This document shows, piece after piece, positions 7,230 through 63,479 of a DNA stretch of 64,000 bases (within the stretch, counting starts at the first letter, position 1; the number at the start of each line of letters is the position of its first letter). The translations under genes and the position numbers were made by a program. A model generated the notes under the pieces. That model was given only the letters and a program-made list of their open reading frames with translations. It did no database searches and was not told the origin of the DNA. Origin of the DNA: Notamacropus eugenii (taxonomy: Eukaryota; Chordata; Mammalia; Diprotodontia; Macropodidae); contig NC_092879.1 in assembly GCF_028372415.1 (NCBI RefSeq), positions 66,665,427 through 66,729,426 on the forward strand, read 5' to 3'.

Positions 7230-7345
7230 CAACTGTCTCCTTGTACAGCCCTCCCTCACTCAAAACAAAGTCAAGAGCAAGTCATGTCATCATTTCTCTG
7301 ATGGCATGGTCTTCTTTGAAAATGAAGGACAAACACAATTTCCTT
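7230..7345 (+). repeat. Tail of an unnamed marsupial interspersed repeat
   Basis: The block 'aaaacaaagtcaagagcaag', 'tcatgtcatcatttctctga', 'tgaaggacaaacacaa' recurs at 23840-23935 and 63385-63475 and, inverted, at 59528-59600. Its ACAA-type end suggests an RTE-related element or SINE; the name is uncertain. Confidence 0.6.
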
Positions 7346-7420: not shown

Positions 7421-7839
7421 ATCAGTCTTTAAAATAATCAGCAGGAGTTCTCTTATTGCCCATTTGTTCTCAGTCCAGACTTACTCCCTGCCTTCATACA
7501 CAGCCAACTATCCCACTCACACCAGCTGCTAAGAGTTCCTTATTTTTGTAGCTATCCAGTTGAAGTCTCATACATCCCCCTCTTTCCTGCCCATACCAAA
7601 AAAAGATCCCAAGCTTGCACTTTTTTTAATCCTTCAACTTTATAGTTGCTATAAGAGTGTAATTCAGGAATCACCTCTCTCCCCTCCAACACTGATTATC
7701 TATTTCATTAACCTTCTGTTGTGTGAGTCCAAGAATTAGTAGTGTTATGCCCTTAAAAACAAAAAATTTGAGATCTCCATAACACACAAAAAGGGGAAAA
7801 ACCTCCTATTCTAGACTGTTCAAGGTCAAATACTCACTT
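7421..7839. other. Unassigned DNA
   Basis: No recognised feature. Confidence 0.4.
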
Positions 7840-11730: not shown

Positions 11731-12276
11731 ATGGGGAGTTGCTGCTGCAGATTCAAGGAAGAGGAGGAGACGGTACTCGTTCCAGAAGAGCGGGTTCGGC
11801 TGCTGGAACCCCCCGGCGAGCAGGACAGGGCCTCCACATCCGACTCGCAGACCTGTCAAGACGAGCAGTCCCTTCTAGCAGCTATCCTGGCCAGGACGGC
11901 GAGCAGTCTCATCAACGTGGCAGCGGCTCAGTCTCTGCGCCTGACGCCCCACGAGTACAGAGAGCGAGCTCTCTTGTACCACAAGCGGCTGGCCATGGTC
12001 AATCTGGCCGTTGTGCGCATAGGGGGCGTCGGCGAGGGCTGCGACGGCAGTGGAGGCTGCAGCGGTCGCCTCAGGAGCTACTGGAAGAAGAAGCAGCCGC
12101 CCTCCACACCCCTGCCCTCCCTCACCAACCAGCCACACCACGTGCTGGCCGAGGCCCTGGTGCCCTACGCCGACGTACAGCAGGCCATCCGCATAGCGGG
12201 AGACGCCCACCACGCCATGCAGCACGTGCGCGTTCAGCATCAGGAAGAGCTGGTGGTGCCGTTCGAGGTGGTGTGA
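11731..12276 (+). CDS. LAMTOR1: LAMTOR1-like retrogene (Ragulator/p18 anchor paralog), intact
   Basis: This 181-residue protein is homologous to LAMTOR1 (p18, 161 residues in human), which tethers the Ragulator-Rag complex to late endosomes and lysosomes for mTORC1 and MAPK signalling. The start MGSCCC keeps Gly2 for myristoylation and a Cys cluster (4-6) for palmitoylation. EERVRLLEPP (19-28) matches the parental EERKLLLD dileucine segment. DEQSLLAAILARTAS (44-58) and HEYRERALLYHKRLA (74-88) match core helices; WKK (118-120), PLPSLTNQPHHVLA (127-140), DVQQ, RIA and EELVV (172-176) match the C-terminal half. About half of the aligned core residues are identical by eye. A glycine-rich insert (about 97-117) is absent from the parent. 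The coding region is uninterrupted, whereas the parental gene has introns, so it is a retrocopy. The ATG has A at -3 and G at +4. CpG and GC content far exceed the flanks. It is a paralog rather than the parental locus; the symbol marks the family. Confidence 0.85.
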   Translation: MGSCCCRFKEEEETVLVPEERVRLLEPPGEQDRASTSDSQTCQDEQSLLAAILARTASSLINVAAAQSLRLTPHEYRERALLYHKRLAMVNLAVVRIGGVGEGCDGSGGCSGRLRSYWKKKQPPSTPLPSLTNQPHHVLAEALVPYADVQQAIRIAGDAHHAMQHVRVQHQEELVVPFEVV

Positions 12277-18146: not shown

Positions 18147-18430
18147 CTTTTTTTAAAATTTATTTATTTATTTTCAGTTGTCAACATTCATTTTTACAAG
18201 ATTTTTAGTTCCAAATTTTCTCCCCATCTCTCCCCTCCTCCCACCCCAAGACACCATGCGCTCTGATTGTCCCTTCCCCCAATTTGCCCTCCCTTCTATC
18301 ACACCCCTCCTTTCCCTTATCCCCATCTTCTCTCTTTTCTTGTGGGGCAAGATAGATTTCTATACCCCATCACCTGTATTTCTTATTTTCCAGTGGCATG
18401 CACAAACAATTCTCAACATTTGCTCCTAAA
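18147..18430 (-). mobile_element. HAL1/L1 3' end, 5'-truncated
   Basis: On the - strand a poly(A)-like end (18147-18175) is preceded by blocks shared with the HAL1 3' UTR at 28600-28810: 'caaattttctccccatctc', 'ggggcaagatagatttct', 'cacctgtatttcttattt' and 'cagtggcatgcacaaa'. The 5' side stops at the higher-order tandem array. Confidence 0.7.
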
Positions 18431-21249
18431 CAAACAATGGTCATTTAGCTCACTAGACCTCACTTTCAGTTAGATACCTGGGAAGGACTTGTGGTACAAA
18501 TGGTCTTAAGGCCTGCTCCAAGTGTAGGAAATTGTAGGTCATCGCATACACATCCCTGAAGCTCCCTAGGCCTCATTTTCTCCTATCTTCACAGCATGGG
18601 GTGTGGCTTTAGAGCCTTTGAAGGCTTTGACATTTTTAATTCTAGGACTTCTTTGGGCTCTTGAAATGGTCAATCCAGCTCTCTAGCAATCAGTTTCCTT
18701 TAGAGTAGCATGAAGTGCTTTGACCCCAAGGCCTCTGAAAGAATTGTCATTTTTAGTCCTTGAACTTTTGCAGACGTTCCCAAAATTGTTCCCACAGTTC
18801 TCTATGTCACACTTACAGGCAGAGTTGAATGAGGGACATCATGTGCAAATGCTCTTAAGGCCTTCTTAACTCCAGGTCTAGGATATGGTGGGTGATCACA
18901 TACAGGTCTCTGACACTCTATAGGTTGCATCTTCTCCTGTCCTCACAACAGGGGGTCTGGCTTTAAAGCCTGTGAAGGCTGTGACATTTTTAATTCTTGA
19001 ACCTTCTTTAGGCTCTTGAATTGGTCAGTCCAGCTCTCTAGCAATCAATTTCCTTTAGAGTCACAAGACGTGCTTGAATTCCAAGGCCTCTGAAACATTT
19101 GCCATTTTTAGTCCTTGGACTTTTGCAGATGATCCCAAAATGGTTCCCACAGCTCTCTACATGTCAGTTTCAGAAAGAGCCCAATGGAGGATGTCATGTC
19201 CAAATGCTCTTAGATCCTCCTTACTTCCAGGTCTAGGAAAAGGTGAGTGATTACATACAGGCCCCTGATGCTCCCTAGTCCTCAGTGTCACTTATCCTCA
19301 CAGTAGGGCATCTGACTTTAAAGCCCGTGTAGGCCATGACATTGCTAATCCCAAGAATTTGTTGGTAATCTTTCACTGCACCATCCTGCTTTCTAAGAAT
19401 TAGTTTCCTTTAGTCACCTAGAAGTTTTGAATTCTGTCTACAAGACTTTTCACTTTTTGTCTTTGAATATTTGTGGGTGCACCTACAATGGTCATTCTGT
19501 CCTGTAGACCTCAGTTTCAGGCTGAGTCCTTGCAGGGGACTCTAGTGTAAATTCCCTATGGGTCCTTTTTGCTCTAGGCCTAGAATCCTATCAGGGATCA
19601 CATTCAGATCCCTGTAGCTCCCTTCTTCTCATTTGCCTCCCTCTCCCCACAATCTGAACATGGGGTTTCCTTCTAATGTCATTGAATGCCTTCACATTTT
19701 TATACCCTACAAGTTTGGGAGTGTTCTTATACTTGTCCATGCAGCTCTCTTGGACTAGGTTTTCTGTAGAGGCACATAAGGTGTTTTGATTCTGAGGACT
19801 CTGCAAGACTTGTGACTTTTTGACTTGTGACTTGTGGGTGCCCATAAAATGGTCAGTCTTCTCTCTCAGCTTCAGTTTCAGGCTCTATCCTTGCAGGGGC
19901 TTCTTGTCTAAAAGTCCTTAGAGTCCTCTTTACTTTTGGCCTAGCATCCTGTAGGTGATGATATTCAGGTCCCTCAAGCTCCCTTTTCTTCATTTTGCCC
20001 ACTCACACACAGGCACAACATGGGGTCTGGCTCAAAAGACATCGAATGCCTTGATGTTTTTCATCCCAGGAGCTTGGGAGTGATCTTACACTTGTCTGTC
20101 CAGCTCTCTAGAATGTTGTTTCTTTTACAGGCACAGAAATTGCTTGGACTGTAAGCACTCTGAAGGATGAATCTTGATTATTGCATGGACCCTTTCGGTT
20201 GGACATACAATGGTCATTTGGCTCCCTAGGACTCACTTTCAGGTAGATAGCTGGGAGAGTCTTTTGGTATAAATAGTTCTCAGACATTCTTACCTCCAGG
20301 GCTAGGAAATTGTAGGTTATGACATACACATCCCTAAATCTCCCTAGGCCTCAGTTTCTCCAGTCCTCCCACCTGGGCATGTGGCTTTAAAGCCCTTGAA
20401 AGCTGTGCCATTGTTATTTGAAGAACCTTCTTTGGGCTCTTGAAGTGGTCAATCCAGCTCTCTAGCACTCATTTTGCTTTAGAGTCACATTTAGTGCTTG
20501 GACTACAAAGTCTCTGAATGATTGGTCATTTTTAGTCCTTGGACTTTTGCAGATGATCCCAAAATGGTTCCCACAGCTCTCTAGTTCCCACTTTCAGGCA
20601 GAGTCGAATGGGGGACATCATGTGCAAATGCTCCTAAGGCCTTCTTACCTCCAGGTCTAGGAAATTATGTGTGATCACATACAGGTCCCTCATGCTTCAT
20701 AGGTCTCAGTTTCTCTTATCATCACTGTAGGGCTTCTGGCTCTACAGCCATTGAATGCCTTCACATTTTTTCATCCTAGGAGCTTGGGAGTGATCTTTCA
20801 CTGTCCATTGAGGTCTCTATGACTTGGTTTCCTTCAGAAGCACCTGGGAAGGACTTGTGGTATAAATGGTCTTAAGGCCTTCTTACCTCCATGTCTAGTA
20901 AATTGTGAGTGATCACACACACATCCCTGAAACTTCCTAGGCCTCAGTATCTCCTAGGCCTTGACAGTTTTAATTCTGGGACCTTCTTTAGGCTGTTGAA
21001 CTGTTAAATCCAGCTCTCTACAATTCAGGTTCCTTTAGAGTTGCATGGCGTGCTTGGACTACAAAGTCTCTGAATGACTTGTCATTTTTAGTCGTTGGAC
21101 TTTTGCCCAGGAAGAGTCCAAGGGGGGCATTCTGTGGAAATGCCCTGAAGATCTTCTTACCTCAAAGTCTAGGAAATTGTGGGTGATCTCATCCAGGTCC
21201 TGATGCTCTATAGGCCTCAGGATCTTGTTAGTCATCTTACACTGGGCTA

Positions 21250-22285
21250 TCCAGCTTTCTAAGACTCAGTTTCCATTGGAGTCACATAAGAGGTTTTGAT
21301 TCTGAGGACCCTGCCAGACTTGTCACTTTTTGTCCTTGGACACTTGTGTGTACACATACAGTGGCCATTCTGCTCTCTAGGCCTCAGGTTCAGGGAACTG
21401 TAGTATAAATGCCATTAGGGTCCTGCTTGTTCTAGGTCTAAAATCTTATAGGTGATTACATAACCTCCCTTGTTCTCATTTTCCACTCTCTCCCCACAGT
21501 CTCAACATGGGTTCTGGCTCTAAAGTCATTGAATGCCTTGACATTTTTTCGTTGTTGGAGCTTGGGACTGATCTTACACTTGTCCATGCAACTCTCTAGG
21601 ACTTGTTTTCCATGACAGGCACATAAATTTCTTGGACTCTAAGCACTGAAGGACAAGTCATGATTATTGCTTGAACCCTTCTGACTGAACATACAATGGT
21701 CCTGTGGCTCACTAGGCCTCACTTTGAGGTAGATACCTGGGAGGGGCTTGTGTAAATGGTTTTAAGGCCTTCTTACTTCCTTTTCTACATAATTATAGGT
21801 GATCACATACCCATCCCTGAAACTTCCTAGGCCTCAGGAACTCCTGTCCTCACAGTGGGGGTTCTAGCTTTAAAGCCTATGAAGGCCTTGACATTTTTAA
21901 TTCTAGGTCCTTCTTTCAGCTCTTGAACTGTTCAGCCCAGCTCTCTAGTACTCAGTTTCCGTTAGAGTCACATGAACTGCTTGGACTTCAAGGCCTCTTA
22001 AAGACTTGTCATTTTTAGTCCTTGGACTTTTGCAGACGTTCCCAAAATGTGTTCCACAGCTCTGTAGGTTCCAGTTTCAGAAAGAGTCCAATAGGGGATG
22101 CCATGTGCAAATGCTCTTCAAACCTTCTTACCTCCAGGTCTAGGAAATTGTGGGTGATCACATACAGGTTCCTGATGTTCCGTAGGCCTCAGTTTCTCCT
22201 ATCCTCACAGTAGGGTATCTGCCTTTAAAGCTTTTGAAGGCCTTTACATTGTTGATCTTACTGTTCATCATCTTACTATGTGACA
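21250..22285. repeat. Higher-order repeat copy 1 (regular part)
   Basis: One complete nine-unit period: A' at 21250, B' at 21368, C' at 21462, A'' at 21588, B'' at 21705, C'' at 21820, A at 21937, B at 22056 and C at 22172 (approximate starts). The next A' follows at 22286. Confidence 0.8.
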
Positions 22286-23349
22286 TCCAGCTTTCTAGGA
22301 CTTAGCTTCCTTTAGTGTCACCTAAAGGTTTTAGATTCAGAGGACCCTGCAAGTCTTGTCACTTTTTGTCCTTTCATACTTGTGGATGCCCATACAATGG
22401 CCATTCTTCTCTATAGGCCTCAGTTTCAGGCTGAGTCCTTGCAGCAGCCTCTGCTGGAAAAGCCTATAGGGTACTCTTTGCTCTACGCCTTGCATCCTGT
22501 AGGTGATCACATTAAGGTCCCTCAAGCTGCCTTGTCCTCATTTCTCCCTCTCACATACAGGCATAAGATAATGTCTATTTCTAAATTCACTGAATTCCTT
22601 GATATTTTTTTCATCGTTGCAGCGTGGGAGTGATCTTATGCTCATTCATCATGCTCTCTAGGACTCAGTTTCCTTTAGGGCCACATAAATTACTAGGACT
22701 CTAAGCTCTCTGAAGGATGTCATGATTATTGCTTGGAGCCTTCTGGCTGAACATACAATGGCCATTTGGCTCATTAGGCCTCACTTTCAGGTAGATACCT
22801 GGGAGAGACTTGTGGTATAAATGGTCTTCAGACCATCTTACCTCCAGGTCCAGGAAATTGTAGGTCATCCCATCCCTGAATCTCCCTAGGACTCAGTTTC
22901 TCCTTTCCTCACCACAGGGGGTCTGGCTTTAAAGCCTTTAAAGGTTTTGATATTTTTAATTCTAGTACCTTCTTTGGGCCCTTAAAATGGTCAATCCAGC
23001 TCTCTAGCACTCAGTTTCCCTTAGAGTCACATGAATTACTTGGACTCCAAGGCCTCTGAAAGACTTGTCATTTTTAGTCCTTAGACTTTTGCAGATGATC
23101 CCAAAATGGTTCCCACACCTCTCCAGGTCTCATTTACAGGAAGAGTCTAATGGAGGATATCATGTTCAAATGCTCTTAAGGCCTTATTATCTCTAGGTCC
23201 ATGAAATTGGAGGTGATCAAAAACAGGTCCCTGACACTCCCTAGGCCTCAGTTTCTCCTATTCTCACAGTAGGGGGTCTGGCTTTTAATCCCTTGAAGGC
23301 CTTGATGTTGTTAATCCTAGGATCTTGTTAGTCATCTTACACTGGTCTA
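22286..23349. repeat. Higher-order repeat copy 2 (regular part)
   Basis: The second period has the same unit order: A' 22286, B' 22408, C' 22527, A'' 22648, B'' 22765, C'' 22880, A 22995, B 23115, C 23232. A third period starts at 23350 and is cut off inside B' at about 23497. Confidence 0.8.
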
Positions 23350-23539
23350 TCCAGCTTTCTAAGTCTTAGTTTACATTAGAGTCATATAAAGGATTTTGAT
23401 TCCTGGAAGACTTGTCACTTTTTGTCCTTGAACACTTGTCCAAGGTCATTTAGTTCACATTTAGTGGTCATTCTGTTCTCTAGGCATCAGTTTCAATCAT
23501 AATCCATGGAAGTCTATTGAAAAGCTTCTCATTTTTAAT

Positions 23540-23935
23540 TCCCACTCTCCACTTAATGGCTGACTTAGAGTGATTTTCAGTAGTAAAAGTTTCTCTTTTC
23601 CTTCCAGTGTTTTTGTTGCTTTTTTCTTTTCCTTTTTAAGAGGCCCTTTCTCTGAGTTCTTTTTTAAGAAGCCTATTCACTCAATGGTGTTACCTCCCTC
23701 TAAGTGAATACCTGAAATGGCCAAGGTCCCTCATTGCATTCTGGACCATTTCCAGTCATTCTGATGAATATCTTGTCCCTGGATCCAGATATCTCAAGAG
23801 TAAAAATGAGGCTGATGACCTTGCACAGCACTCCTTTACTCTAGACAAAGTCAAGTGCAAGTCATGTCATCCTTTCTCTGATATAATGTTCTTCTTAGAA
23901 AATGAAGGATGAACACAACAGCAGCCAAGGCGTGC
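23540..23935 (+). repeat. Unnamed marsupial interspersed repeat, about 400 bp
   Basis: It shares a series of blocks in the same order with 63080-63475: 'ctccacttaatggctgac', 'gcctattcactcaatgg', 'attctgatgaatatcttg', 'gtcaagtgcaagtcatgtca' and the tail 'aatgaaggatgaacacaaca'. The ACAACA end suggests an RTE-type element or its SINE; the family name is unknown to me. Confidence 0.65.
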
Positions 23936-28573: not shown

Positions 28574-29560
28574 GTTTTTTTTTTTTATTTAACTTTTAAC
28601 ATTTATTTTCACACAATTTTGGGTTACAAATTTTCTCCCCTTTTATCCCCTCCTCCCCCCAGACCCAAGCTTTCTAATTGCCCCTGTGACCTATCTGCTC
28701 TCTCCTCTATCCTCCCTCCCTGCCCTTGTCTCTGTCTTCTCTTTTGTCCTGTAGGGCCAGATAGATTTCTTGACCCCTTAACCTGTATTTCTTGTTACCC
28801 AGTGGTAAGAACATTACATTTGGTCCTAACACTTTGAGTTCCAACTTCTTTATCTCCCTCCCTCTCCACCCCTTCCCCTTGGAAGACAAGAAATTCAATA
28901 TAGGCCATATCTGTTTAGTTTTGCAAATGATTTCCATACTAGTTGTGTTGTATAGAACTAACTATATTTCCCTCCATCCTATCCTGTCCCCCATTACTTC
29001 TATTTTCTTATGGTCCTTTCCCTCCCCATGAGTGTCAAGCTCGTATTACATTCTCCTCCCCTCCCCTCCCCTCTATCCTCCCCCCCACCCTGCTTATACC
29101 CCTGTCCCCCACTCTCCTGTATTATGACATAGGTTTTCCTATCAAAATGAGTGTGCATTATATTCTTTCCTTTAGTGGAATGTGATGAGAGTAGACCTCA
29201 TGTTTTTCTCTTGCCTCCCCTCTTTATCCAACCACTAATAAGTCTTTTGCTTGCCTCTTTTATGAGAGATAATTTGCCCCATATAACTTCTCCCTTTCTC
29301 TTCCCAATATTTCTCTCTCACTGCTTGATTTCATTTTTTTTTAAGATATGATCCCATCCTCTTCAATTCACTCTGTGCACTCTGTCTCTATGTGTGTGTG
29401 CGTGTGTGCATGTGTGTGTGTGTGTACTCCCACCCAGTACCCAGATACTGAAATGTTTCAAGAGTTACAAATATTGTCTTTCCATGTAGGAATGTAAACA
29501 GTTCAACTTTAGTAAGTCCCTTATGACTTCTCTTTGCTGTTCACCTTTTCATGGTTCTCT

Positions 29561-30658
29561 TCATTCTTGTGTTAGAAAGTCAAATTTTCTTTCCAGCTCT
29601 GGTCTTTTCATCAGGAAAATTTGAAAGTCCTCTATTTCATTGAAAGACCATTTTTTCTCCTGAAGTATTATACTCAGTTTTGCTGGGTAGGTGATTCTTG
29701 GCTTCAGTCCTAGTTCCTTTGACTTCTGGAATATCCTATTCCATTCCCTTCTATCCTTCAATGTAGAGGGTGCCAGATCTTGTGCTATCCTGACTGTATT
29801 TCCACAATACTTGAATTGTTTCTTTCTAGCTGCTTGCAATATTTTCTCTTTCACCTGGGAATTCTGGAATTTGGCCACAATGCTCCTAGGAGTTTCTCTT
29901 TTTGGATCTCTTTCATGCGGTGTTCTGCGGATTCCTTGAATATTTATTTTGCCTTCTGGTTCTAGAATCTCAGGGCAGTTTTCCTTGATAATTTCATGGA
30001 AGATGATGTCTAGGCTCTTCTTTTGATCATGGTTTTCAGGTAGTCCCAGAATTTTTACATTGTCTCTCCTGATTCTATTTTCCAGGTCAGTTGTTTTTCC
30101 AGTAAGATATTTCACATTATCTTCCATTTTTCGAATCTGCGCGGTATGTTCTGAGATATCTGTCTTTCTCATAAAGTCCTTAGCGTCCATCTGTACCATT
30201 CCAGTTTTGAAAGATCTATTTTCTTCAGTGAGCTTTTGAATCTCCTTTTCCATTTGGTTAATTCTGCTTTTGAAATCATTCTTCTCCTCATTGGCCCCTT
30301 GCACCTCCCTTGCCAACTGAGTTAGGCTAGTTCTCAAGGTGCCAATTTCTTCAAGATTTTTTTGGTTCTCCTTTAGCAGGGAGCTGATCTGCTTTTCATG
30401 CTTCTCCCTCATCCCTCTCATTTCCCTTCCCAGTGTTTCCTCCACCTCTCTAACTTGATTTTCAAAATTCCTCTTGAGCTCTTCCATGGCATGAGCCCAT
30501 TGGGTGGGCTGGGACACAGAAGTCTTGATTTCTGTGTCTTTGCCTGATGGCAAGCATTGTTCCTCCCCATCAGAAAGGAAGGGAGGAAGTGTCTTTTCTC
30601 CGAGAAAATACCCTTCAATAGTTTTATTTCTTTTGCCTTTTCTGGGCATTCTCCCCAA
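29561..30658 (-). CDS. HAL1/L1 ORF1 protein (RNA-binding nucleic acid chaperone)
   Basis: The intact 365-residue ORF1p begins MGRMPRKGKRNKTIEGYF, with a basic N terminus. A long coiled coil follows (about 54-195, rich in E, K, Q and L heptads; for example EELKRNFENQVREVEETLG), which trimerises L1 ORF1p. Next is an RRM-like domain starting at RRDNVKILGLPENHDQKKS (about 197) and a C-terminal domain (about 255-350) with the conserved segments RETPRSIVAKFQNSQVKEK, KILQAARKK and GLKPRITYPAKLSI. ORF1p coats the element RNA and acts as a chaperone during target-primed reverse transcription. No stop or frameshift breaks it. It is the only protein gene of this element; the next 985 bp on that strand hold no reverse transcriptase. 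Confidence 0.9.
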   Translation of the reverse strand: MGRMPRKGKRNKTIEGYFLGEKTLPPFLSDGEEQCLPSGKDTEIKTSVSQPTQWAHAMEELKRNFENQVREVEETLGREMRGMREKHEKQISSLLKENQKNLEEIGTLRTSLTQLAREVQGANEEKNDFKSRINQMEKEIQKLTEENRSFKTGMVQMDAKDFMRKTDISEHTAQIRKMEDNVKYLTGKTTDLENRIRRDNVKILGLPENHDQKKSLDIIFHEIIKENCPEILEPEGKINIQGIRRTPHERDPKRETPRSIVAKFQNSQVKEKILQAARKKQFKYCGNTVRIAQDLAPSTLKDRREWNRIFQKSKELGLKPRITYPAKLSIILQEKKWSFNEIEDFQIFLMKRPELERKFDFLTQE

Positions 30659-37199: not shown

Positions 37200-37460
37200 G
37201 GACTATTCTCTGTCCCATAAACACACATTGTGCTCACTTATGTTCATTCCTTTACACACACTATTCTTCATGCCCAGAATGCCACCCTTTCTCCTCTCCA
37301 CCTGCTGAGTTCCTATTCTTCCTTTCAAACCCAATTCAAAAGTCTTATCATTCACAATGGCTGCCATGCATGATCCTCTGTCCTTGACAGCCATCCCTCT
37401 CTGAATTTGGTTACACTTCTGCAGAGTCCCTGATGCAGCTCTTCAATTAAATTATTAAGT
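37200..37460 (+). repeat. L2-like LINE fragment
   Basis: Blocks 'cacactattcttcatgccca', 'gaatgccaccctttctcct' and 'caaacccaattcaaaagtct' follow L2 3' order; the terminus is absent. Confidence 0.5.
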
Positions 37461-37471
37461 ATTATAAGATA

Positions 37472-37615
37472 GGGGTAGCTAGGTGGCACAGTGGATAGAG
37501 CACTAGCCCTGGAGTCAGGAGGACCTGAGTTCAAATATGGCCTCAGACACTTACTAGCTGTGTGACCCTGGGAAATTCACTTAACCCCAATTGCTTCCCC
37601 CTCCCCCCAAAAAGT
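37472..37615 (+). repeat. WSINE1-type tRNA-derived SINE
   Basis: A short well-preserved SINE: 'aggggtagctaggtggcaca', 'gtggatagagcactagccct', 'ggagtcaggaggacctgagt', 'gtgtgaccctgggaaattca', then 'cttaaccccaattgctt' and a C/A-rich tail. The Pol III A-box (TGGCACAGTGG) and B-box (GAGTTCAAAT) positions are visible. It is the youngest-looking SINE in the window and the best lineage marker. Confidence 0.85.
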
Positions 37616-59527: not shown

Positions 59528-59600
59528 GTGTTTGTCCTTCGTTGCTGAAGAAGACCATGCCATCAGGGAAATAATGACATGACTTGCACTTCACTTTAAA
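59528..59600 (-). repeat. Tail of the unnamed repeat, inverted
   Basis: 'gtgtttgtccttcgttgctg' to 'atgacatgacttgcacttca' is the reverse complement of the tail at 7240-7345. Confidence 0.65.
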
Positions 59601-60290
59601 TTAGGACAGCCCTGTCAATAGGTCCAGATCGGCTGAATGCTTCTTTCAATAATTCATTAGAAACATAGGGTGAAAGATTTCGTACAGAGAGGGCAGCTGC
59701 ATATGTGGCAAAACGAACACCAAGTTGTCGCCCTCTCATGGGTGTATCATCAAGTTCTGCTTTTGCAATGTCTGCCAGGGCTCTAGATTCCAGTTTGATG
59801 AAACTGAATCCTTTGCCCTTGTTAATAACGTCTTTCACCGGGTTCCCCATATTTAGCAAATAATCTTTTAAAGTCTTCATCTGTAATATCAGCGGGCAGA
59901 TTTCCAACAAATAATCTACATCACCAGGCCTCCTCCACAGAGACAAATGTGCCCTCCGAGCCCGAGATCCTCTCTTTGCCGCGACCATCGGGCCCGCCGG
60001 GTGAGGGGCTCTGATGATGGGGTGGCGGTATGGCGAGGGGTGCTGCCTTTGGGTCCACCAGGGCTCAGACTGGCCTGGGTCCCGTAGCGGCTGAGTCTGA
60101 GTTTACAGAGGCCGGCGTTGAAGAAGTCTGCTGAGGCCCTCGGGAGGGCCGACGGTCCAGAGGAGGCCTGAGGGGCGGCGCTGCGGTGGCCACGGTGGGC
60201 CACGGGCTGCCGCCTGGAGGCAGGTTTGGCTTTGGCTGCCCTCGATTCTGGCTCAGGCCCATGCCCAGCAGCGGTGAACGGAAGTCATGG
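59600..60290 (-). pseudogene. SFPQ: SFPQ (DBHS splicing factor) processed pseudogene
   Basis: Read on the - strand, SFPQ segments appear in order. The N-terminal HDFRSP and MGLSQNRG (near 60285-60240; parent DFRSPPPGMGLNQNRG) are followed by a shortened Pro/Gly-rich region. Then come LSLWRRPG at the entry to RRM1 and the RRM1 end [40 protein letters not shown]. The RRM1-RRM2 linker and start of RRM2 is [20 protein letters not shown], ending at [14 protein letters not shown] is a nuclear RNA- and DNA-binding paraspeckle protein of about 700 residues; only about a third remains. Several hundred bases of the Pro/Gly region, most of RRM2 and the NOPS and coiled-coil parts are missing. The beginning of RRM1 has shifted out of frame ([21 protein letters not shown] instead of the usual [11 protein letters not shown]). 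It lacks introns and is broken; DBHS proteins read in the order SFPQ/NONO/PSPC1, and the peptide matches SFPQ best. Confidence 0.85.
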
Positions 60291-63049: not shown

Positions 63050-63475
63050 TACATTGCACAACAATAGGTCCCTACCCAAACTCCACTTAATGACTGTTTT
63101 CTGGACCTTCCTGGCTTCAGAGTGATTATCAATAGTAACTGTTGCTCTTTCCCTCCCAGCTGGATTTCCTTATTTTTTTCTTTTGCTCATTAAAGGGGCC
63201 ACTCCCTGTTTACTTCTTAAAGAGGCCTATTCACTGAATGGGCTAAACCTCACTCTAAGTAAGTACCTGAGTAGGCCAAGGTCTCCCATTGCATCCTGGG
63301 CCTTCTCCAGTCATCCTGATGAATATCTGATCACTGAATCCAGATGACCCAGGAGGGAAAGTGAGGCTGGTGACCTTAAACAACCCTCCCTTACTCAAAA
63401 CAAAGTCAAATACAAGTCATGTCATTATTTTTCTGATGTCATGGTCTACTTTGAGAACGAAGGAACACAGACTCT
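63050..63475 (+). repeat. Unnamed marsupial interspersed repeat, second long copy
   Basis: It matches 23540-23935 block by block: 'ctccacttaatgactgtttt', 'gcctattcactgaatggg', 'catcctgatgaatatctgat', 'gtcaaatacaagtcatgtca' and the terminal 'gagaacgaaggaacacag'. Confidence 0.65.
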
Positions 63476-63479
63476 CACC

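Follow-up and report, generated by a model that had tools for sequence, protein, structure and literature searches.

In Lathyrus sativus, satellites arose from tandem repeats inside long terminal repeat (LTR) retrotransposons, and these plant elements are dispersed, hold a short internal tandem array and occasionally expand it, mainly in certain chromosome regions, at primary constrictions (PMC7004042). The foldback transposon Tetris of Drosophila virilis, with its TIR-220 repeats, is a non-autonomous DNA transposon with terminal inverted repeats, whose internal tandem repeats gave rise to satellite arrays of kilobase size (PMC4079207). Among marsupials, WALLSI1/1a, WALLSI2 and WALLSI3 are non-autonomous retroposons with RTE-derived tails, and WALLSI3 is common to opossum, wallaby and devil; the word 'tandem' occurs nowhere in the main text of their description (PMC3403934). 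Here we describe a stretch of 64,000 nucleotides from Notamacropus eugenii (the window), in which a tandem array of 118-bp monomers, first noticed at 18431–23497, is in all likelihood part of one copy (18430–23922, plus strand) of a dispersed, apparently non-coding marsupial retroposon family, mobilised by a long interspersed nuclear element (LINE).

The family shares with the Lathyrus elements the dispersal, the short internal array and the occasional regional expansion; it differs from them in belonging to a mammal, in its LINE-type 3′ end and in expanding on a presumed X chromosome. With Tetris it shares the passage from internal repeats to long arrays, whereas its variable 5′ ends and common tailed 3′ end set it apart from a DNA transposon. 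The likeness to the WALLSI elements is one of type. In alpha-satellite, divergent monomers build a larger unit of several monomers, and this unit recurs in its turn. The array has such a unit as well, with nine monomer subtypes in the order a1 b1 c1 a2 b2 c2 a3 b3 c3, but alpha-satellite is centromeric and homogenised, and has no retroposon tail alongside. A macrosatellite of the DXZ4 type, with its homogeneous kilobase-size unit and CTCF binding, is likewise different from an array of 118-bp monomers, and CTCF-like sites in the window are not above chance.

A dispersed family with a common 3′ tail

The initial annotation had spoken of a single short array and, as one option, of a locus-specific repeat, and neither description survived the genome search. 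In the 3.445-Gb assembly, where the contig of the window is here called C25 (window at C25:66665427–66729426), a 1.1-kb array query gave at least 94 matches at no fewer than 40 loci, with 64–81% identity apart from the self match (best 40 of 321 candidates), and a query taken from an autosomal copy gave at least 61 matches at no fewer than 39 loci (best 39 of 249 candidates). Combined and counted by hand, the two queries place the monomers at 57 loci or more on eight contigs, 17 on C25 and 40 elsewhere, the loci, possible segmental duplicates included, being taken as independent (two on contig C4, separated by 27 kb, score the same). Twenty-seven loci, including the window, were read (11 of the 17 on C25 and 16 of the 40 others), and the remaining ones were judged by hit span.

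At ordinary loci there are 7–16 monomers, for the most part in the same order but starting at different points on the 5′ side; in the copies L010 and L011 the order is c3 a1 b1 c1 a2 b2 c2 a3 b3 c3 a1 b2 c2 a3. In 15 of the 19 ordinary copies the array closes within a3 (model position 41–53), and the starts are scattered over many monomers and positions; L019 ends in c2 with the tail 47 bases further on, and L017, L023 and L027 end differently. A search with the Basic Local Alignment Search Tool (BLAST), using 23529–23922 of the window, found the tail adjoining the array at 24 of the 27 loci read, the window included. Of the 26 loci outside the window, 23 have it, at 71–82% identity (L024 over 57 bp only, L027 starting at tail position 135). 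Its closing sequence is GAAGGATGAACACAACAACAA or nearly so; several copies other than that of the window close in ACAACAA repeats, which would fit an RTE-dependent marsupial short interspersed nuclear element (SINE). The constant 3′ and variable 5′ ends seen in 15 of the 19 ordinary copies are those of a non-LTR, LINE-mobilised retroposon. Loci built in this way, as a short array mostly in one order with a common 3′ tail and differing 5′ ends, do not agree with the old pericentromere relic that had also been proposed. Moreover, the truncated copy L014 is flanked by a perfect target-site duplication of 12 bp, for which the probability by chance is about 0.004 over 19 loci. L009 and L019 have in common 123 bp (83% identical) ahead of their monomers; this stretch begins at nearly the same place in both and is probably the true 5′ end of the element.

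In the element, 118-bp monomers in the nine-subtype order make up a short tandem body, which is followed by a tail of ~390 bp that often ends in ACAACAA repeats. Copies would be made by target-primed reverse transcription with LINE machinery, which may belong to the RTE clade, as the form of the tail end and the published marsupial SINEs with RTE tails suggest. In the window copy, unequal exchange or slippage would have amplified the internal repeats after insertion, both in trimers and in nine-mers, and the repeats would then have decayed without further homogenisation. The element would act as a satellite seed that a retroposon transports. Of the origins proposed initially, the 'satellite seed' was the nearest; the unit is the body of a dispersed retroposon. 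As expected of a retroposon-derived satellite, the same monomers are found both in dispersed short arrays and in arrays of 33 to ~101 monomers. The stages preserved, from ordinary dispersed copies through the doubled L009 and inverted pairs to copies with 33 to ~101 monomers, show how a retroposon carrying a small tandem array can seed satellites.

Several observations weigh against a LINE-mobilised retroposon. The tail is not beside the array at L017, L023 and L034, and the tail tree is an unresolved star. A target-site duplication was not found for the window copy, and 18 of the 19 other loci share at most 7 bases, which is chance level (the 3′ ends of L009, L017, L023 and L024 were not properly located). 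No reverse-transcriptase frame occurs within ~1.5 kb upstream of 10 tail-only copies, and the partner LINE is thus a presumed one. Some loci are irregular, with inverted pairs at L024 and L033 and a deviant order at L017, L022 and L026, and L009 (C4:212627000–212636000) consists of tandem copies, 6 monomers with a tail and then 14 monomers with the first 137 bp of the tail; this doubled copy is possibly a first step in amplifying the whole element. Finally, the family may already have a name. Among the titles listed by literature searches none names this element, which is no proof of novelty.

Beside one dispersed copy, L016 (C23:53441000–53450900), a match to the huntingtin C-HEAT domain was observed at ~7570–7680 (E 1.7e-14), about 1.3 kb beyond the tail, and this copy therefore lies in or beside the HTT gene or an HTT pseudogene.

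Structure and local expansion of the window copy

Self-comparison of 18431–23497 gave identity peaks at lags 118 (0.339), 355 (0.367) and 1059 (0.320), all above the maximum of 100 shuffles (0.302), and in this respect the three nested periods of 118, 355 and about 1,060 bp reported initially were recovered. Ten control stretches not overlapping the array had none of these three among their top three lags. Other lags are equally high in the array (2542, 0.364; 1424, 0.355; 1483, 0.338) because of trimer duplications and deletions. By wraparound profile alignment we found 43 near-full 118-bp monomers with partial ends. No monomer was found in the rest of the window. Subtype consensuses are 0.46–0.63 identical between the letters a, b and c and 0.69–0.80 inside one letter, and members of the same subtype have a mean identity of 0.70–0.85 (single pairs 0.61–0.88). 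The maximum-likelihood tree of 41 monomers, which leaves out the two damaged monomers m23 and m25, recovered group a (100/100), group b including a hybrid monomer (99/97) and group c including a damaged monomer (95/91), with eight of the nine subtypes as single clades; c1 costs one extra change, since the damaged monomer sits inside it. The nested organisation described in the initial annotation is confirmed. The same nine subtypes in order are present in the ordinary copies L010, L011 and L014, and so the 118- and 355-bp scales and the nine-type block predate the window array; only the repeated 1,060-bp cycling is local to it.

In the monomer map, the truncated 5′ end of the copy is a partial c3 monomer (18430–18455), and L010 and L011 likewise begin within c3, at model position 75–76. 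Another interspersed repeat (18159–18429) adjoins this end, its part 18159–18396 being 76% like 28576–28805. The first block (18456–20228) is a 15-mer, a1 (b1c1a2)(b1c1a2) b2 (c2a3b3)(c2a3b3) c3, with two internal trimer duplications. Within 20229–21714 lie, with internal deletions, a second block (a1 b1 c1 a2 and a b2/b3 hybrid) and a third one from a1 to c3 in the full order, in which b1, c1 and a2 are shortened or fused. A complete block from a1 to c3 follows at 21715–22776 (1,062 bp); over its six leading monomers it shares 80.1% identity with the last block, a1 b1 c1 a2 b2 c2 (22777–23482). The nine-unit cycling had been placed from 21250 onwards: the order is real, but it runs through the whole array, with deletions in places at 20.8–21.2 kb. 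Nor does the feature stop at 23497, as it goes on with a partial a3 monomer (23483–23528), which is the usual array/tail junction of the family, and with the common 3′ tail (23529–23922, ~390 bp), ending in GAAGGATGAACACAACAGCAGCC; all these parts are on the plus strand. On the same strand, the window holds a second tail copy with no array (63111–63464, 77% to 23560–23909) and a short third copy of the tail end (7239–7342, 85% over 100 bp to 23819–23918 and 83% to 63374–63476).

The window copy expanded in place. In the tree of b2c2 pairs, the three pairs of the window form one clade (97/87), and in the tree of c1a2 pairs its six pairs do so as well (100/100), and two b2c2 clades (100/99 and 100/96) belong solely to the big array at C25:29.98 Mb. 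Twelve loci contribute one pair each to a further b2c2 clade (100/98, the bootstrap of this tree not having settled), which holds the tail-proximal pair of 11 loci together with the sole b2c2 pair of L022, which is not tail-proximal; such clustering of tail-proximal pairs points to positional orthology and is what copies of one master would show. The origin by successive amplification and unequal exchange, as first suggested, is supported.

Over the first trimer, the first and last blocks are 86.6% identical and adjacent blocks just 78.4–82.7%, and there is therefore no sign of recent local exchange or homogenisation. The SINE-like repeat copies of the window have a median identity of 70.5% (95 pairs), and the array blocks are as diverged or somewhat less. 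Tip lengths are near 0.1 in the monomer, b2c2 and c1a2 trees, which at a usual mammalian rate would correspond to tens of millions of years and to nothing more exact. The gamma shape of 435 in the window-array tree indicates no rate variation among columns (6.4–6.6 in the multi-locus trees), and conservation measured without gaps shows no significant clustering along the block (p 0.06–0.12), so that the decay looks neutral. An apparent clustering of conservation (p 0.0004) was dropped, as it fell to these values once gaps were left out, and a lower indel rate in the array (0.063 versus 0.090 per mismatch in control repeats) was not used, as it rests on overlapping alignments. Homology of the conserved CTCTCTAGGCCTCAGTTTC box to MIR was also rejected: p ranged from 0.01 to 0.87 over the nine subtypes, with two below 0.05, and the best 20-column stretch was not significant (p 0.15).

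Compared with control repeats, the array has a lower transition/transversion ratio, perhaps owing to a CpG-poor source. Substitutions from the subtype consensus in 18431–23497 are strand-asymmetric, with G->T 2.5 times C->A (z 3.6, one of six tests) and A->T 1.65 times T->A (z 2.0), A->G and T->C being equal; this could be due to germline transcription or to an effect of the pyrimidine-rich strand.

Enrichment on C25 and the competing explanations

Relatives of a LAMTOR1-like frame of the window lie on contigs of 85.2 Mb in Dromiciops gliroides and, for one of them, 89.4 Mb in Monodelphis domestica; C25 measures 103.0 Mb. In both species no chromosome but the X is known to be that small, and we infer that C25 is the X chromosome. 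C25 makes up 3% of the assembly and holds 10 of the 38 other loci found with the autosomal query among its best 39 of 249 candidates (1.14 expected, 8.8-fold, P ~1e-7); with the window query, it holds 11 of 39 (best 40 of 321 candidates). Locus density per 100 Mb is at least 16.5 on C25 versus at least 0.65–2.34 on six other large contigs (C14, with two loci, excluded), and nine of the 17 C25 loci found lie in a 9-Mb stretch at 57.7–66.7 Mb. These figures are for this family alone.

The expanded arrays are those of the window (44 hits), C25:29.98 Mb (~101 monomers; L029, L030 and L035), C25:65.6 Mb (33 monomers; L031), C25:26.16 Mb (judged by a hit span of 3.6 kb) and 51.1 Mb (L025, C25:51113500–51123400), where 56 monomers form two opposed blocks. 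In L025, 38 minus-strand monomers follow another higher-order pattern (a1 b1 c1 a2, a1 b2 c1/c3) and face a plus-strand copy of 18 monomers with a tail. Expanded arrays thus occur at five of the 17 C25 loci and at none of the 40 elsewhere (P 0.0015, or 0.005 without the window), with the cut-off for 'expanded' set after the data were seen and the candidates scored best-first. Outside C25, no single array exceeding 16 monomers was seen, and monomer counts differ between C25 (n = 11) and the other loci (n = 16; Mann–Whitney P 0.009, L009, in fact a double copy of 6 and 14 monomers, being counted as 20).

The best-surviving alternative, which we nevertheless hold to be improbable, is that the family began on the X, as a satellite or as a locus for a long non-coding RNA, and that its transcripts, once they had a tail recognised by a LINE, were retroposed to autosomes, the big X arrays being the sources and not the products. 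In the c1a2 tree, eight of the nine non-C25 copies fall in one clade (91/83) with the C25 copies outside, and the window clade stands apart on a branch of 0.097; in addition, the window keeps the full nine-mer by the tail (a1 b1 c1 a2 b2 c2 a3-tail), in contrast to the c3 a1 b2 c2 a3-tail of most copies read. However, the root of this tree is a midpoint guess and its tip lengths overlap (0.035–0.13 for non-C25 copies, 0.061–0.16 for C25 copies), and the tail tree is star-like. Moreover, the four expanded arrays that were read (window, L025, L031 and L035) close in the same tail as the ordinary copies, and none of the arrays has a known promoter or transcript.

We give little credence to the idea that selection keeps the array as a structural or regulatory element of the X, similar to RSX, DXZ4 or FIRRE. 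The locus excess of C25 and the confinement to it of all five expanded arrays seen would agree with such an element, as would the 5 kb without any interspersed element, though for SINE-like copies alone this has a 13% probability by chance. The unclustered conservation and the uniform column rates described above speak against selection. No sign of structured RNA was found in the array: none of 83 array windows reached z < −3 on either strand, versus 4 of 105 control windows on each strand. RNA families gave nothing at gathering score in the window nor in L009, L010 and L019, and at a relaxed threshold two matches at 18–24 kb (E 1.5 and 1.8). An open reading frame is not supported, the longest open stretch being 105 codons. 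CTCF-like sites number 41 in the window against 34.7 expected, not above chance, and CpG observed/expected is 0.066 in the array versus 0.187 in the rest. The RSX RNA has a clustered AG-rich motif of 34/35 bases containing AGGAAGARGGGA, and 67 and 31 copies of the two forms of this 12-mer are reported for opossum Rsx (PMC6664574). No RSX-type motif cluster is present in the 64-kb window, where the exact 12-mer occurs once; with at most one mismatch it occurs six times, above all 100 shuffles (mean 1.8), but these matches are scattered, with none inside the array. No function of the array is shown.

A related proposal, for which we likewise see only a slight chance, is that the marsupial X accumulates and selectively expands this retroposon-borne repeat, at about nine-fold locus density and with all the large arrays seen, and that its arrays, which bear dozens of near-repeated pyrimidine-rich units, are way stations for RSX silencing or X-specific chromatin anchors. 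Should the X bias stand up to a control, the question would be why the RSX-inactivated marsupial X collects and expands the element, with 17 loci to test. Finally, a relic of a centromeric or pericentromeric satellite, which the three nested scales and the higher-order repeats could suggest, can be practically discounted, as the higher-order copies are only 78–87% identical over the first trimer in an array of 43 monomers, the family is spread over at least 57 loci on eight contigs with 24 of 27 arrays read ending by the same tail, and CENP-B-box-like sites (at most 2 mismatches) show no excess in the window (40 versus 53 expected).

Other features of the window

The LAMTOR1-like frame (11731–12276, plus strand) is intact and intronless, encodes 181 aa with a Pfam LAMTOR match and lies in a CpG-richer stretch. 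Four matches were found with it, the window's own protein, one from Dromiciops gliroides and two from Monodelphis domestica, the proteins of these two species being 62–66% identical to it; the frame looks like a retained marsupial retrogene and is probably X-linked. On the minus strand, a frame at 59599–60102 seems to resemble an RNA-recognition part of SFPQ and is probably a processed pseudogene, and a frame of 365 aa at 29561–30658 is an L1 ORF1 with L1 RBD-like and dsRBD-like domains. A SINE at 37460–37601 appears marsupial by its sequence.

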